From Anaerolineales bacterium (lineage in GTDB: Bacteria; Chloroflexota; Anaerolineae; Anaerolineales; UBA6663), in the NCBI GenBank assembly GCA_020845955.1, contig JADLEU010000220.1, positions 19,364 to 83,363 on the forward strand: a stretch of DNA of 64,000 nucleotides, given 5' to 3'. Position numbers and translations under genes: made by a program. Below the pieces are notes generated by a model. The model was given only the letters and a program-made list of their open reading frames with translations, had not been told where the DNA came from and made no database searches. This document shows, piece after piece, positions 23,432-32,878 of this stretch; position 1 is the stretch's first letter; every line of letters begins with the position of its first letter.

Positions 23432-23701
23432 ATGAGTGATATGAGCGACATGCCCGCTGTGCCCGCGATGGAGGCGCCCGCGGAGCCGGCCCCAATGCCC
23501 GAGCCCCCCGCGGCTGCCCCAGCTCGCAAGGCTGCCAAGAAGAGCAGCAAGAAGGCGGCTGGCAAGAAGACCGCCAAGAAGGCGGCTGCCAAGAAGACTG
23601 CCAAGAAGACCGCTAAGAAGGCCGCTGGCAAGAAGGCCGCCAAGAAGGTCGCTGGCAAGAAGACCGCTAAGAAATCGGCCAAGAAGGGCAGCCGGAAGTA
23701 A
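23432..23701 (+). CDS. histone H1-like lysine/alanine-rich protein
   Basis: Acidic/proline N-terminus, then repeated KKAAxKK/KKTAKK units; AGGAGG RBS upstream. Confidence 0.75.
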   Translation: MSDMSDMPAVPAMEAPAEPAPMPEPPAAAPARKAAKKSSKKAAGKKTAKKAAAKKTAKKTAKKAAGKKAAKKVAGKKTAKKSAKKGSRK

Positions 23702-24796: not shown

Positions 24797-27340
<2,544 letters not shown>

Positions 27341-27341
<1 letters not shown>

Positions 27342-28801
27342 CAGGCTTGGGGCTCGATGAGGTCAAACTGACCTCGCGTCGGCTCTGCTCAACAGAACCA
27401 GTCCTCTGTCAGGCGCGGCGGATCTGGCCGCGCGGGCAGTCTGTCCGGCAGGGTGCGGGCTATCCTATCTGGCCCGGCCTGGGCGGCCGTCAGGGCCAAG
27501 GCCCGCACCGCGGCATACGTTTCCGGGGCGGGTTCGCGGCGCTCGTCCGCCAGGGCCAACCTGGCTGCCACCTGACCGTGCAGCCGGTCCATGCGCGCGT
27601 CGGGGTGTTCCCAGCGGTAGGTGAAGTTGGATGCATCCAGTTCGCGGAGCCACAGAACGGCGTCGGGCGCATGGATCAGCGGCGAGCCCGGCGGCAGCAA
27701 CAGCCGGATGCCGAGCTGGATCGGCGGGATGTGAGTCTGCAGCCCGCGCGCTTCGACGAAATCGATCAGCGCGACGTAGTCCTCGAGCCTCGTCCACGGC
27801 GTGAAGGCCACCAGCGTTGGCCGCAGCGCCAGCCCAGCGTTGTCGAGGATATCCAGAGCCATGTCGATGTCGGCAGCCGTGTGCCCCTTCTGCAGGCGCT
27901 CGAGCACCAACGGACTGAGCGATTCGATCGCCGACGTGACGAACGTTGCGCCCAGATCGGCCAACTCGGCAAACAGGGCGCGATGCTTGATGATGTGCTC
28001 CACTTTAGTCGTGAAGTCAAACGTCAGCCGCGGAAACTCGGCATGCAGCGCCCGCGTGACCTTACGGGCCTGGCCCGGCCCATTCAAGAAATCGGGGTCG
28101 CCAAAGGTAATGTGCTCCGCGCCAGCCGCCACCTGTTGCCGAACGTGGGCCAGCACAACCTCGGCCGGCACGACAAAGAACCGCCCGCCGTACACCGGGA
28201 CAATCGGGCAATGCTGGCAGGTGTGCAGGCACCCGCGGCTCGCCTCGACATAGCCCGCCAGGCGCGCAACACCCTTGCTGACGTAACGAGCGTAACGATC
28301 AAGCGGCGGCAATCCCCGGCTGTCCGGCACCGGAAGCACCGGCCGAGCCAGGGGAGGTCTATCCCTGCCGTCCACGAGCGCCCCGGCCCAGAGACCTGCC
28401 GGGCGGGCGCCAGACGCTAGTGCCTCGGCCAACCGGACCAGCGCCGCCTCGTCTTCGCCGCCCACCACGGTGTCGGCCACCGTCTCCAGCAGGATGGCGG
28501 CATTGAGGCCGGCATATAGGCCCCAAAAACAGATATGGGCCTGCGGGTTGCTACGCCGCACCTGCGTGGCCGCCGCCACGCCCAACCGCAAGGCCGTGTG
28601 CATTGGAGCGGCAATTGCGACCAGGCGCGCCGCGCGCGCCGCCGCCAGGTCAAATGGCTGCACCGCCAGGTCTAGCGTCGATACCGAGAACCCGGCCTGC
28701 CGGATCAGGGCCTGAGGCCAGGCCAGGCTCAATGGCTGGTGGCCCAGCTCATAACACGAGATCAGCAGGATCGGGACTCGCTCGGGAGCTCGGTCACTCA
28801 T
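27341..28801 (-). CDS. radical-SAM protein, probable selenoprotein (CUAEP-tail type); TGA at 27389-27391 read as Sec
   Basis: CLHTCQHC 4Fe-4S motif and B12-binding-like N-terminus. ORF tracker stops at ...LTEDWFC-TGA; in-frame continuation AEPTRGQFDLIEPQA-TGA ends in TGATG overlap with the next gene. Total 486 residues including Sec. Confidence 0.87.
27359..27375 (-). promoter_or_regulatory. candidate bacterial SECIS stem-loop
   Basis: On - strand, 13 nt after the TGA: GAGGTCA-GTT-TGACCTC, a perfect 7-bp stem with G first in the loop. Confidence 0.7.
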
Positions 28802-30041
28802 AGCGCAGCGCGTCGATTGGGTTGAGGGCCGAGGCGCGCACCGCCGGGTACATGCCGAAGAATAGGCCGATGGCCGCTGAGAACCCGGTAGCCAGCAGCA
28901 CGCTGTCGAGCGTGACAGCGACCGGCAGATCTGGCTGGAAGCTGGCGACCAGGTACGAGCCAGCCGCGCCGATGGCAATGCCGAACATGCCGCCCAACAG
29001 CGCCAGCGTGACGGCCTCAATTAGGAATTGGGCCAGGATATCGCGCCGCCGCGCGCCGACGGCCTTGCGCAAGCCAATCTCACGCGTCCGTTCGGTCACG
29101 GACACCAGCATAATGTTCATGATCCCGATCCCGCCCACCAGCAGCGAGATGCCGGCGATCGCCCCCAGGAAGATCGTCAGCACGCCGGTGACCTCGCCAA
29201 AGGCTGAGATCAGGTCATTCTGGGTCACAACGGTGAAGTCATCCTCGTCGCGGAAATCGATGTCATGGCGCTCGCGCAGCGCGGCAGCGACTTCCCGCGC
29301 GGCGCTTTCCATCGCCTCGCCGCTGCGCGCCTGCACGTAGACAATGGACAGGCCGTAGCGCCCATCCGGCTGGCGCGCATTGAAGAGGCGCTGTTGAGCC
29401 GTGGTCAGCGGCACGAGGACGATCGAGTCCTGATCGCCAAACAAGCTGCCGCCCTGCGCCTCCAGCACGCCCACCACTTTGAACGGCACCTGGCTGATCT
29501 TGATCGTCTGGCCCATCGGAAACTCGCCATTGGGAAACAGCGTTCGGACGACTGTCTGGCCGAGGACCGCGATCCGCGCCACGGAGCGTTCATCAGCCTC
29601 GGTTATAAAGTCGCCCTCCCCCACGTAGAACTGGCGCACCTCCTGGTAATTGGGGCTGACACCGCTCACCTGCACATTCATCGTCTCGCGGCTGTATTCC
29701 ACCGGCGCAAATCCCAGGTACTCTAGCGCAACGCCTTGCGCGCTCGGCACCAGAACCGGATCGCCCAGGGCCAGACCGTCGTCGTTAGTGAGCGGCTGGT
29801 CGCGGTTGGCGCCGACCGGGGGACCTTCTTGGTCTGCTGGCCCGCCCGGAAAGACGAAGAGCAAATTGGAGCCGATGCCCTGGAACTGGGCCGTCACGTA
29901 GCGCTCGACACCCTTGCCGACCGACAACAGAGTGATGACCGCGCCCACGCCGATGATAATCCCCAGCATCGTCAGCGCTGCCCGCAGTTTGTTGGCCGCC
30001 AGTCCCCGCCAGGCCACCCGCAACAACTCGCCAATCGGCAC
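28794..30041 (-). CDS. MacB/FtsX-family ABC transporter permease
   Basis: NKLRAALTMLGIIIGVGAVITLLSVGKGVERYVTAQFQGIGSNLLFVFPGG; GGIGIMNIMLVSVTERTREIGLRKAVGARR. Confidence 0.92.
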   Translation of the reverse strand: MPIGELLRVAWRGLAANKLRAALTMLGIIIGVGAVITLLSVGKGVERYVTAQFQGIGSNLLFVFPGGPADQEGPPVGANRDQPLTNDDGLALGDPVLVPSAQGVALEYLGFAPVEYSRETMNVQVSGVSPNYQEVRQFYVGEGDFITEADERSVARIAVLGQTVVRTLFPNGEFPMGQTIKISQVPFKVVGVLEAQGGSLFGDQDSIVLVPLTTAQQRLFNARQPDGRYGLSIVYVQARSGEAMESAAREVAAALRERHDIDFRDEDDFTVVTQNDLISAFGEVTGVLTIFLGAIAGISLLVGGIGIMNIMLVSVTERTREIGLRKAVGARRRDILAQFLIEAVTLALLGGMFGIAIGAAGSYLVASFQPDLPVAVTLDSVLLATGFSAAIGLFFGMYPAVRASALNPIDALRYE

Positions 30042-31471
30042 TATGGCCCATCCAGTAAATTCAGCGTATCGCGGGCGGTGCTGACCGCAGCCACCTCCCC
30101 AGGCGCGGCGCCTGCCAGCACTTCAGTATAGGCCCCGCCCCGCAGCCCTGTGGTGATCGGCACTTCGACCAGTCTCCCGTCGCGCTGCAGGCTGATAAAG
30201 GCCTGGCCGGTGCGCCGGTCGCGGCGGATAGCCCAATTGGGCGCTACCACCACGTCCTCGGCCGCGGCTACTACGATCTGGGCCGTGGCGCTCATGCCAG
30301 CGCGCAGGGCGGGGGCCGTCTCGTCGAGACTGAGCCGCACCGCATAGCTGGCTAATCCCCCCGTGGTGTCGGCTGTCGGCGCGATCCGCTCTACGCGGCC
30401 GCCCAACCGCTCATCGGGCAGCGCGTCCACCGTCACGGAGGCGGTCTGTCCCACGGTTAACCCAGCCACGTCCACCTCATCCACGGTAACGTCCAGGTGG
30501 AATCGAGACACATCCAGCAGCACAATCGGCGGGACGCCAGTGGCGGCGGGCTCGTCGGCCTTGATGCCCACGCTGGCCACTAAACCTGAAAAGGGCGCTA
30601 CCAGCTCGGCCTGCCTCAGCCGCTGGCTGGCCCGCTCCAGCGCCGTCCCGGCCTGGCGCACCGACAGGTCAGCTTGCAGAAGCTGCAGCGTGGTTGGCCC
30701 GGCCAAGGTCTGCGATAGCACCGCGCGGGCCTGCGCCACTTGGGCATAGGCCACAGCCGCTGGCCCTTGCCCGCCGCCTTCCTGCGCCTGCGCCAACTGT
30801 AGGCGCGCAATCTCGGCGGTGAAGTAAGCGTTCTCCACGTTGGCCTTCAGGCTGTCTAGCGTCTCCTGGGGGGGCGCAAACCGGGGGTTCTCCTGCGCGA
30901 ATTGCGCCAGGCTGTTGTACTGGTTCGACAGGGCCTGGTAGTCGGCGAGCAGGTTGCTGTACTTGAGTTCGGCGATGGCGACTTCCTGCTCCCCTGCGCC
31001 CACCAGCACATCGCTCAGTTGGGCATTAGCGCTGCGAAGGTTTGCTTCGGCCACAGCGATGTCGGCAGCGGCGGGACCGGCGCGCAGCTTTTCGCGATTG
31101 AGATCAGCCACCCGGGCGGCATCCTGCGCCTGCTGCCAGGCCAGGCGTAGAGCAGTGTCGTCGAGCCGCGCCAGCACCTGGCCGCGTTCAACCGTCTGGC
31201 CGCTTTCCACCAGCACCGCAGCCACAGTGCCTGGCACGCCGAATGACAGATTGGCCTCGTGCTCGGGCAGGATGGCGCCCGTCGCGCTGACGCTGGCGAC
31301 GATGTCACCGCGCTGGATGGCTTCCGTACGGAGCGCCGCCGCCTCGGCCGCCCGCGCCTGCTCGGCGCGATAGCTCTGATAGAAAGTCCAACCCGCGTAT
31401 CCGCCGGCCGCCAGGGCTAAGAGCACCAGCCAGGGAATGATGGATCGCAACCGAGCCGCCAGTGCGTTCAA
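30041..31471 (-). CDS. HlyD/MacA-type efflux adaptor (membrane fusion) protein
   Basis: N-terminal TM anchor, SATGAILPEHEANLSFGVPGTVAAVLVESGQTVERGQVLARLDD lipoyl-type domain, coiled-coil, LVAPFSGLVASV. Confidence 0.88.
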   Translation of the reverse strand: MNALAARLRSIIPWLVLLALAAGGYAGWTFYQSYRAEQARAAEAAALRTEAIQRGDIVASVSATGAILPEHEANLSFGVPGTVAAVLVESGQTVERGQVLARLDDTALRLAWQQAQDAARVADLNREKLRAGPAAADIAVAEANLRSANAQLSDVLVGAGEQEVAIAELKYSNLLADYQALSNQYNSLAQFAQENPRFAPPQETLDSLKANVENAYFTAEIARLQLAQAQEGGGQGPAAVAYAQVAQARAVLSQTLAGPTTLQLLQADLSVRQAGTALERASQRLRQAELVAPFSGLVASVGIKADEPAATGVPPIVLLDVSRFHLDVTVDEVDVAGLTVGQTASVTVDALPDERLGGRVERIAPTADTTGGLASYAVRLSLDETAPALRAGMSATAQIVVAAAEDVVVAPNWAIRRDRRTGQAFISLQRDGRLVEVPITTGLRGGAYTEVLAGAAPGEVAAVSTARDTLNLLDGP

Positions 31472-31486
31472 GGCCGACTGTCCCGG

Positions 31487-32878
31487 CTACTGTCCGAAAA
31501 AACTGAACTGTTCGCGCTGATCGCTGACCGCCACGATGTCGCCAGCCCGTATCCCCTCCACGACTTCGCTGTACTCCTCGTCGCGTAGGCCCAGCGTCAC
31601 CGGCGCCTCCTCGATCAGGCCATCGCGCAGCAGGCCGACAAACGCCTGCCCCGTGTCGCGGTCCCGGCGAACGGCCCAGTTCGGCACGAGAAGCACATCG
31701 CGCACTTCCCCCACCACGATGGCGGCCGTGGCCGTCATGCCGCCGCGCAAGGCGGCCTCCAGCGTGTCCAGGGAAAGGCGAACCGGATAGCTCACGACGC
31801 CGGCATTGATCTGGGCGGCGGGCGCGATCTTGTCCACTTGTGCCCTCAGCGCCAGGTCAGGCAGCGCATCCAGTGTGACTGTGACCGGATGTCCGGGGCG
31901 GACACTGGCCACATCCACTTCGTCAACGAGCACTTCCAGATAGAAGCGGCTGACGTCGGACAGCACGACGGCCGGCAGGGCGTCCGTGGCCGGCTCTCCC
32001 AGGCGCAAGTTCACGGCCGCCACAACTCCGTCAAAGGGCGCAACGATGGCAGCCCTTTCCAGATCATGCCGCGCAATCTCCAGCCCCGCTTCGGCCTGGC
32101 TGATCTGCAGCCGGGCAATTTCCAGATCTTCCTGGCCAGGCCCTGCGCGCAGGCGCTCGAGCGCCGCTTCGGCTTGCTCGACGGCAGCTTGGGCCGCCGC
32201 CGATTGCCCGTAACCTGGCTGCTCCTGGGCCTGGTGAAAGCGCAAGTCGGCGATTTGGGCCGCCTCCACCTGAGCGTCAGCCTGGGCCTGCAAGGCATTC
32301 TTTTCGGCCCAGCGGCCTTGCTCCACCAGGCGGTCCATGGCCGCGTATGTTTGGTTAAGGGTATTCTGGGCCAATACCAGGTTAAGGCGGGCGATCTCAA
32401 CCGCTTCGGGCGGCTGCCCCAGAGAGGCGGCATAGACCTGGTTGCGTGCCACCCGCAGGTTAGCCTCCGCCACGGCGATATCCTCGGGTCGTGGGGGCGC
32501 CTGCAGCAGCGCCAACTGCAGCCGGGCCGCTTCCAGCGCTTGGCCGGCCTCAGTCACCGCCAGGCGCAGCTCGGCGTCGTCAAGGCGCGCCAAGACGTCG
32601 CCGGTGCGAACGTCGTCACCCAATGCCACGTTGATTTCGACGACAGGCAGGCCTGCGGCGCTTGAGAAATAGAGGTTGACCTGTTCCTGGGCTGCCAGGA
32701 ACCCTGTAGCGTTTACGGTTGATAGGATCGTGCCGGGTTGGACCGTTTCCTGACGGCTTACAACCGCCACAGCGCGCCGGGCGGCGGCCTGCTGCTGCCA
32801 GAAGTAACCACCACCGCCCACCGCTATCGCCACGACCACCACGACAATCAGATTTCGCAGAGTGCGCCCACGTGCCAT
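31487..32878 (-). CDS. HlyD/MacA-type efflux adaptor protein
   Basis: NLIVVVVVAIAVGGGGYFWQQQ TM anchor, VEINVALGDDVRTGDVLARLDDAEL, AIVAPFDGVVAAVNLRLGE. Confidence 0.88.
   Translation of the reverse strand: MARGRTLRNLIVVVVVAIAVGGGGYFWQQQAAARRAVAVVSRQETVQPGTILSTVNATGFLAAQEQVNLYFSSAAGLPVVEINVALGDDVRTGDVLARLDDAELRLAVTEAGQALEAARLQLALLQAPPRPEDIAVAEANLRVARNQVYAASLGQPPEAVEIARLNLVLAQNTLNQTYAAMDRLVEQGRWAEKNALQAQADAQVEAAQIADLRFHQAQEQPGYGQSAAAQAAVEQAEAALERLRAGPGQEDLEIARLQISQAEAGLEIARHDLERAAIVAPFDGVVAAVNLRLGEPATDALPAVVLSDVSRFYLEVLVDEVDVASVRPGHPVTVTLDALPDLALRAQVDKIAPAAQINAGVVSYPVRLSLDTLEAALRGGMTATAAIVVGEVRDVLLVPNWAVRRDRDTGQAFVGLLRDGLIEEAPVTLGLRDEEYSEVVEGIRAGDIVAVSDQREQFSFFGQ

Follow-up and report, generated by a model that had tools for sequence, protein, structure and literature searches.

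ArsL, a radical S-adenosylmethionine (SAM) enzyme whose C-terminal tail carries the motif RCCLKC, makes hydroxyarsinothricin, a reaction that is predicted to proceed via transfer of a 3-amino-3-carboxypropyl group from SAM to As(III) (PMC8552651). Another family has been named in NCBIfam as the 'CUAEP/CCAEP-tail radical SAM (seleno)protein' (NF040546, rSAM_CUAEP) with no function assigned; we found no paper on it in the literature searched, and a 2026 review of selenoproteomes (PMC13188914) mentions neither NF040546 nor CUAEP. Here we analyze a gene of this kind from an Anaerolineales bacterium (Chloroflexota), located in a 64,000-nucleotide (nt) stretch of contig JADLEU010000220.1 (positions 19,364 to 83,363; hereinafter, the window), which is a genuine selenoprotein gene and a new member of the named family. 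The main features of the gene, in window coordinates, are:

27341..28801, minus strand: CUAEP-tail radical SAM selenoprotein gene, 486 residues with selenocysteine (Sec) at position 471 (NF040546, 656 bits, profile positions 1-467 of 468)
27389..27391, minus strand: in-frame TGA read as selenocysteine (Sec471), from the sequence and from the homologue codons, which are TGA, TGC or TGT only (n=128)
27380..27394, minus strand: codons of the C-U-A-E-P tail motif, invariant in the alignment
28208..28231, minus strand: radical SAM [4Fe-4S] motif CLHTCQHC (C191, C195, C198), with a PF04055 match and all three Cys invariant
27359..27375, minus strand: hairpin GAGGUCA-GUU-UGACCUC, resembling a selenocysteine insertion sequence (SECIS), with the stem from nt 17 and the loop at about nt 24-26, counted from the U of UGA

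The open reading frame starts with the ATG at 28801-28799 and runs through ...PPRLTEDWFC to the TGA at 27389-27391, past which the same frame continues as UAEPTRGQFDLIEPQA to a second TGA at 27343-27341; the read-through tail is C-U-AEPTRGQFDLIEPQA. The final TGA shares the sequence TGATG with the ATG of the downstream permease gene, which begins at 27341, and the start codon is overlapped by the stop of the upstream MacB-like permease gene (ATGAGTGA). In all these respects, the sequence agrees with an earlier note made from the letters of this stretch: re-reading reproduced the position of the TGA, the continuing frame and the overlaps at both ends, and both of its counts, namely the 47-nt gap that would remain without read-through and the 16 residues that standard gene callers would truncate, are correct. 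The NCBI family that the note had named exists as NF040546, and the read-through protein scores 656.1 bits against its profile (cut-off 500). The whole-length match, the CUAEP tail and the interchange of Sec and Cys are all shared with this family, and nothing argues against membership; because the family name already exists in NCBIfam, we count the gene as a new member of a known family. The assignment to the radical SAM enzymes, initially made from the CLHTCQHC motif, holds as well: PF04055 matches with 42.7 bits (cut-off 29.5), the CxxxCxxC motif is present, and C191, C195 and C198 are invariant in an alignment of 35 sequences. In the same alignment, with TGA read as Cys, C470, position 471 and A472-E473-P474 are also invariant.

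NF040546 is found over its cut-off in 93 of 400 Chloroflexota genomes, and in more than half of these the stretch that matches contains a single TGA. The invariant Cys is followed, in each of 128 distinct homologues, by one of three codons, TGA (91), TGC (25) or TGT (12), a restriction far outside chance expectation, and AEP comes directly after this codon in all homologues examined. The conserved (U/C)AEP extension that the earlier note expected is thus present throughout, and no homologue ends at WFC. A tree of 111 members implies at least 11 changes between Sec and Cys, 5 of which are forced by well-supported branches. Standard gene calling ends the protein at ...DWFC, as it would if the UGA were a plain stop followed by a decayed tail. 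Given the conservation of AEP past the codon, the restriction of the codon to TGA, TGC and TGT, the covariation of the SECIS confined to TGA forms and the complete Sec machinery of the genome (the latter two are described below), this explanation is hardly credible.

The predicted fold of the window hairpin has a z-score of -2.25 (4 of 200 shuffles fold equally well), and no SECIS family of Rfam matches it. The same position was compared across 74 non-redundant Sec forms: 84% of the cells for the six core pairs hold a standard pair, and a single position of the core stem shows as many as six pair types. When the partners are shuffled between sequences, a procedure that ignores relatedness, pairing drops to 68% and none of 500 shuffles reaches 84%; when the pairing is slid along the sequence, it falls to 19-64%. 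In Cys forms (n=34), the core stem is 47% paired, little above the shuffled level (55 of 500 shuffles reach it), and the fold z-scores of the two groups differ (P = 3e-7). Around the hairpin, Sec and Cys forms encode similar protein sequences; therefore, selection on the RNA structure appears to track the reading of the codon as Sec. Judging from these comparisons, Sec forms carry a covarying putative SECIS hairpin after the codon, and Cys forms lack it.

The genome that contains the window (6.06 Mb, 431 contigs) was searched for the Sec genes, as the earlier note had proposed, and all four are present, namely selA (540 bits), selB (over its cut-off, with 325 bits for the best stretch and 349.7 with the neighboring stretch), selD (370 bits; L048, G000:C162:12747-13688) and a tRNA-Sec with the anticodon TCA (UCA). 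The selD gene is itself Sec-encoded, with an in-frame TGA within CAGUASK, and so serves as an internal control for the reading of UGA. The presence of SelB was considered as a discriminator between Sec and Cys forms and rejected: it is over the cut-off in 37 of 38 genomes with Sec forms, 37 of 40 with Cys forms and 64 of 80 family-negative genomes, and it is uninformative because SelB is common in the phylum. Taken together, these observations make the selenoprotein assignment about as secure as sequence permits. UGA471 is in all likelihood decoded by the genome's own SelA, SelB, SelD and tRNA-Sec, assisted by a hairpin with its loop 23-27 nt downstream.

Clustering of the genes that surround CUAEP genes, initially at 41 Chloroflexota loci and then at about 120 loci from many phyla, yielded several recurrent neighbors: ATP-grasp proteins at 38 loci, Met-tRNA-formyltransferase-like proteins at 27, NifU-domain proteins at 20 and DUF169 proteins at 14. 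A YggX-like iron-trafficking protein was called at 17 loci, and at 11 others the called frame appears to be antisense to a YggX-like gene. Similarly to the ATP-grasp L-amino-acid ligases (BacD, DdaF and PRK02186-type), the ATP-grasp partner combines ATP-grasp_4 with the L-amino-acid-ligase C-terminal domain (LAL_C2), but, unlike them, it scores far under the cut-offs of all named NCBIfam ligases. The DUF169 (COG2043) proteins adjoin CUAEP genes mostly in Nitrospirota and in some Chloroflexota (the loci include L072, L073, L098, L105, L111, L115, L116, L126, L127 and L152). Two CCAEP forms (L166 and L170) are encoded on contigs labeled as Euryarchaeota metagenome-assembled genomes, with a NifU-domain neighbor; a full-length ATP-grasp protein was not found in these genomes, which are small or incomplete.

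A profile search for the ligase in Chloroflexota detected it in 40 of 40 family-positive genomes as opposed to 2 of 40 family-negative genomes at the same score level (Fisher 1.6e-20); of the two exceptions, one is on a 5.5-kb contig (L196) and the other has a TAG inside the match. The ligase is also present in 41 of 45 positive genomes recorded under other phyla, in 3 of these as contig-end pieces only. In an out-of-sample check by separate searches of 100 genomes of a Nitrospira phylum, the ligase was found in G405 and G529 only, and the CUAEP family in the same two genomes only. Within single genera, the two genes are either both present or both absent (G246 versus G012, G024 and G061; G375 versus G094, G198 and G230). 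The genome of the window encodes the ligase, with LAL_C2, at G000:C233:39924-41153 (557 bits), and a YggX-like gene lies at a distance of 1.4 kb. A formyltransferase paralogue (over 240 bits) is found in 27 of the 40 positive genomes and none of the 40 negative ones.

The CUAEP and ligase genes are often adjacent and might simply be inherited together, such that the association would reflect shared ancestry or linkage without function. This appears very improbable given that gene order and strand vary among the loci, that the ligase is present though unlinked in many genomes, that the two genes come and go jointly within single genera, and that the same 2 of 100 genomes hold both in a second phylum. 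The co-occurrence makes a strong case, from genome comparison, that the CUAEP enzyme and the ATP-grasp ligase function in one pathway and, because the enzyme almost never occurs without this ligase, the two probably jointly make an undiscovered small molecule.

After NF040546, the best family match of the CUAEP protein is ArsL (NF040542, 306.3 bits). In a joint alignment with ArsL-type proteins, both groups share the radical SAM cysteines along with many residues of the core, and plasmid-borne proteins with the RCCLKC tail are 33-38% identical to the CUAEP protein. The likeness extends to the fold class, the core motifs, an adjacent Cys pair near the C-terminus and, in several clusters, an ATP-grasp protein with an LAL_C2-like domain; such proteins with similar domains are encoded in the ArsL-type clusters of Priestia, Pantoea and Alicyclobacillus. 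The two groups differ in the tail (CUAEPTRGQFDLIEPQA rather than RCCLKC), in the use of Sec rather than Cys in most CUAEP members, and in the near absence of ars genes around the latter. An identification of the CUAEP protein as ArsL itself is excluded by the score (the ArsL cut-off is 450 bits), the missing RCCLKC tail and the lack of an ars neighborhood.

A set of 120 CUAEP loci contains almost none of the arsenic companions of ArsL (ArsM, ArsR, aquaporin, ArsQ and ArsN1), so that arsenic as the substrate is unsupported by companion genes. ArsM-like and ArsR-like matches occur together at only one of these loci (L106), with weak ArsM-like matches at two more and ArsB-like matches at six; in the window, the CUAEP gene is flanked by MacB and HlyD genes, not by ars genes. 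Given this scarcity of arsenic genes near CUAEP genes, the substrate atom is probably an element other than arsenic. In Ktedonobacteria-type genomes, at L052, L056, L083, L113, L119 and L155, a gene for an ArsB-like or related transporter lies a few genes upstream of the CUAEP gene. At L106 (JACQED010000548.1), the only CUAEP locus with an arsenite-methyltransferase-like gene and an ArsR-like match, these genes lie beside the ATP-grasp and formyltransferase partners, which makes this locus a promising place for a substrate search.

An AlphaFold2 model based on 35 sequences has a mean predicted local distance difference test score (pLDDT) of 91.8, and the tail is predicted to be ordered (block pLDDT about 77-88). 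The nearest solved fold is that of AprD4 (template modelling score about 0.67-0.72), followed by OxsB and TsrM. The predicted fold resembles those of these B12-type radical SAM enzymes, but the sequences are only 13-19% identical and the CUAEP protein has no cobalamin signature (30.1 bits for the B12-binding domain PF02310, under its cut-off of 32.1, and no DxHxxG motif). We know of no Cys-Sec tail in AprD4, OxsB or TsrM.

By analogy with ArsL, it is plausible that the CUAEP enzyme works in a similar manner. The CxxxCxxC-bound cluster would cleave SAM as in ArsL, and a SAM-derived carbon fragment, most likely 3-amino-3-carboxypropyl, would be added to an atom that is soft and thiophilic. This atom would be held by the Cys470-Sec471 tail, folded over the active site, much as the CC of the RCCLKC motif of ArsL possibly holds As(III). 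The ATP-grasp ligase would then join the resulting amino acid through an amide bond, and the Met-tRNA-formyltransferase-like enzyme, often a part of the same pathway, would sometimes N-formylate it; a YggX-like or NifU-domain protein would usually be the partner that supplies iron or the Fe-S cluster. Addition of an aminocarboxypropyl group to a tail-bound soft atom, followed by ligation, is a tentative proposal that we would rate below even.

The main rival is a redox or hydrogen-donor role of the tail. Under this possible, albeit somewhat unlikely, scheme, the enzyme would generate a 5'-deoxyadenosyl radical and the Cys-Sec pair would quench the substrate radical by donating a hydrogen atom, in the manner of radical SAM epimerases and AprD4-type enzymes; the product would again be ligated by the ATP-grasp protein. 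The modeled proximity to AprD4, the lack of a B12 signature, and the repeated exchange of Cys and Sec, a typical behavior of residues with a redox or nucleophilic role, are all in line with this role, whereas the sister family ArsL, which also has adjacent cysteines in its tail, is predicted to perform aminocarboxypropyl transfer to arsenic. A distinctly less likely alternative is that the tail is a metal ligand and the enzyme serves to assemble or repair a metal center, of iron or another metal. This would account for the YggX-like and NifU-domain neighbors counted above and for the YggX-like gene near the unlinked ligase in the genome of the window; however, these iron proteins may merely supply the Fe-S cluster, and the amino-acid-type ligase and the formyltransferase suggest a small-molecule product.

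Several observations weigh against the ArsL-like account as a whole. The CUAEP protein falls below the ArsL cut-off (306 vs 450 bits), arsenic companions are scarce, and the closest solved fold, AprD4, is a dehydratase. The CC of RCCLKC aligns with C470-U471, which involves two residues only, across a long gap. The ATP-grasp proteins of the ArsL clusters were rejected as orthologs of the CUAEP partner, being distant homologues (24% identity, 85-135 bits). In the genome of the window, the ligase is unlinked to the CUAEP gene, and the profile search did not find the formyltransferase paralogue. Finally, the proposed chemistry is argued by analogy only. With these points taken into account, a Sec-containing enzyme that acts together with the ligase through ArsL-like chemistry still appears to be the best overall explanation, one that we hold to be reasonably probable.

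The immediate neighbors of the CUAEP gene in the window form an exporter-like gene run:

26097..27341, minus strand: MacB-like ATP-binding cassette (ABC) permease (PF12704, PF02687), with its start codon overlapping the selenoprotein stop (TGATG)
28794..30041, minus strand: MacB-like ABC permease, with its stop overlapping the selenoprotein start (ATGAGTGA)
30041..31471, minus strand: HlyD/CusB-type membrane-fusion protein, same gene run
31487..32878, minus strand: second HlyD/CusB-type membrane-fusion protein

This coupling to an ABC exporter operon is not among the neighborhood clusters of the relatives and hence is not a feature of the family; in this particular genome, the MacB and HlyD proteins might export the product. 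Elsewhere in the window (23432-23701, plus strand), there is a gene for a small histone-H1-like protein, rich in Lys and Ala, with repeated KKxAKK units.

In the searchable papers, a scope that excludes two papers by Haft on new selenoprotein families, we found no description of either the ligase pairing or the SECIS covariation. The conserved SECIS that is lost in Cys forms would provide a clean example of an RNA structure that tracks the reading of the genetic code. The near one-to-one co-occurrence with the ligase offers the first testable pathway context for a named but unstudied family, the kinship with ArsL supplies testable chemistry, and the Cys forms (e.g., those from Thermogemmatispora and Nitrospira) should be expressible in Escherichia coli without Sec insertion. 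More speculatively, and with a probability well below even, the CUAEP enzyme and its private ATP-grasp ligase might represent an unrecognised pathway that spans about ten phyla, in which a new C-X bond-forming reaction, with the Cys-Sec tail holding a soft atom X other than arsenic, would yield an amino-acid-derived metabolite, and of which ArsL would be an arsenic-specialised side branch.
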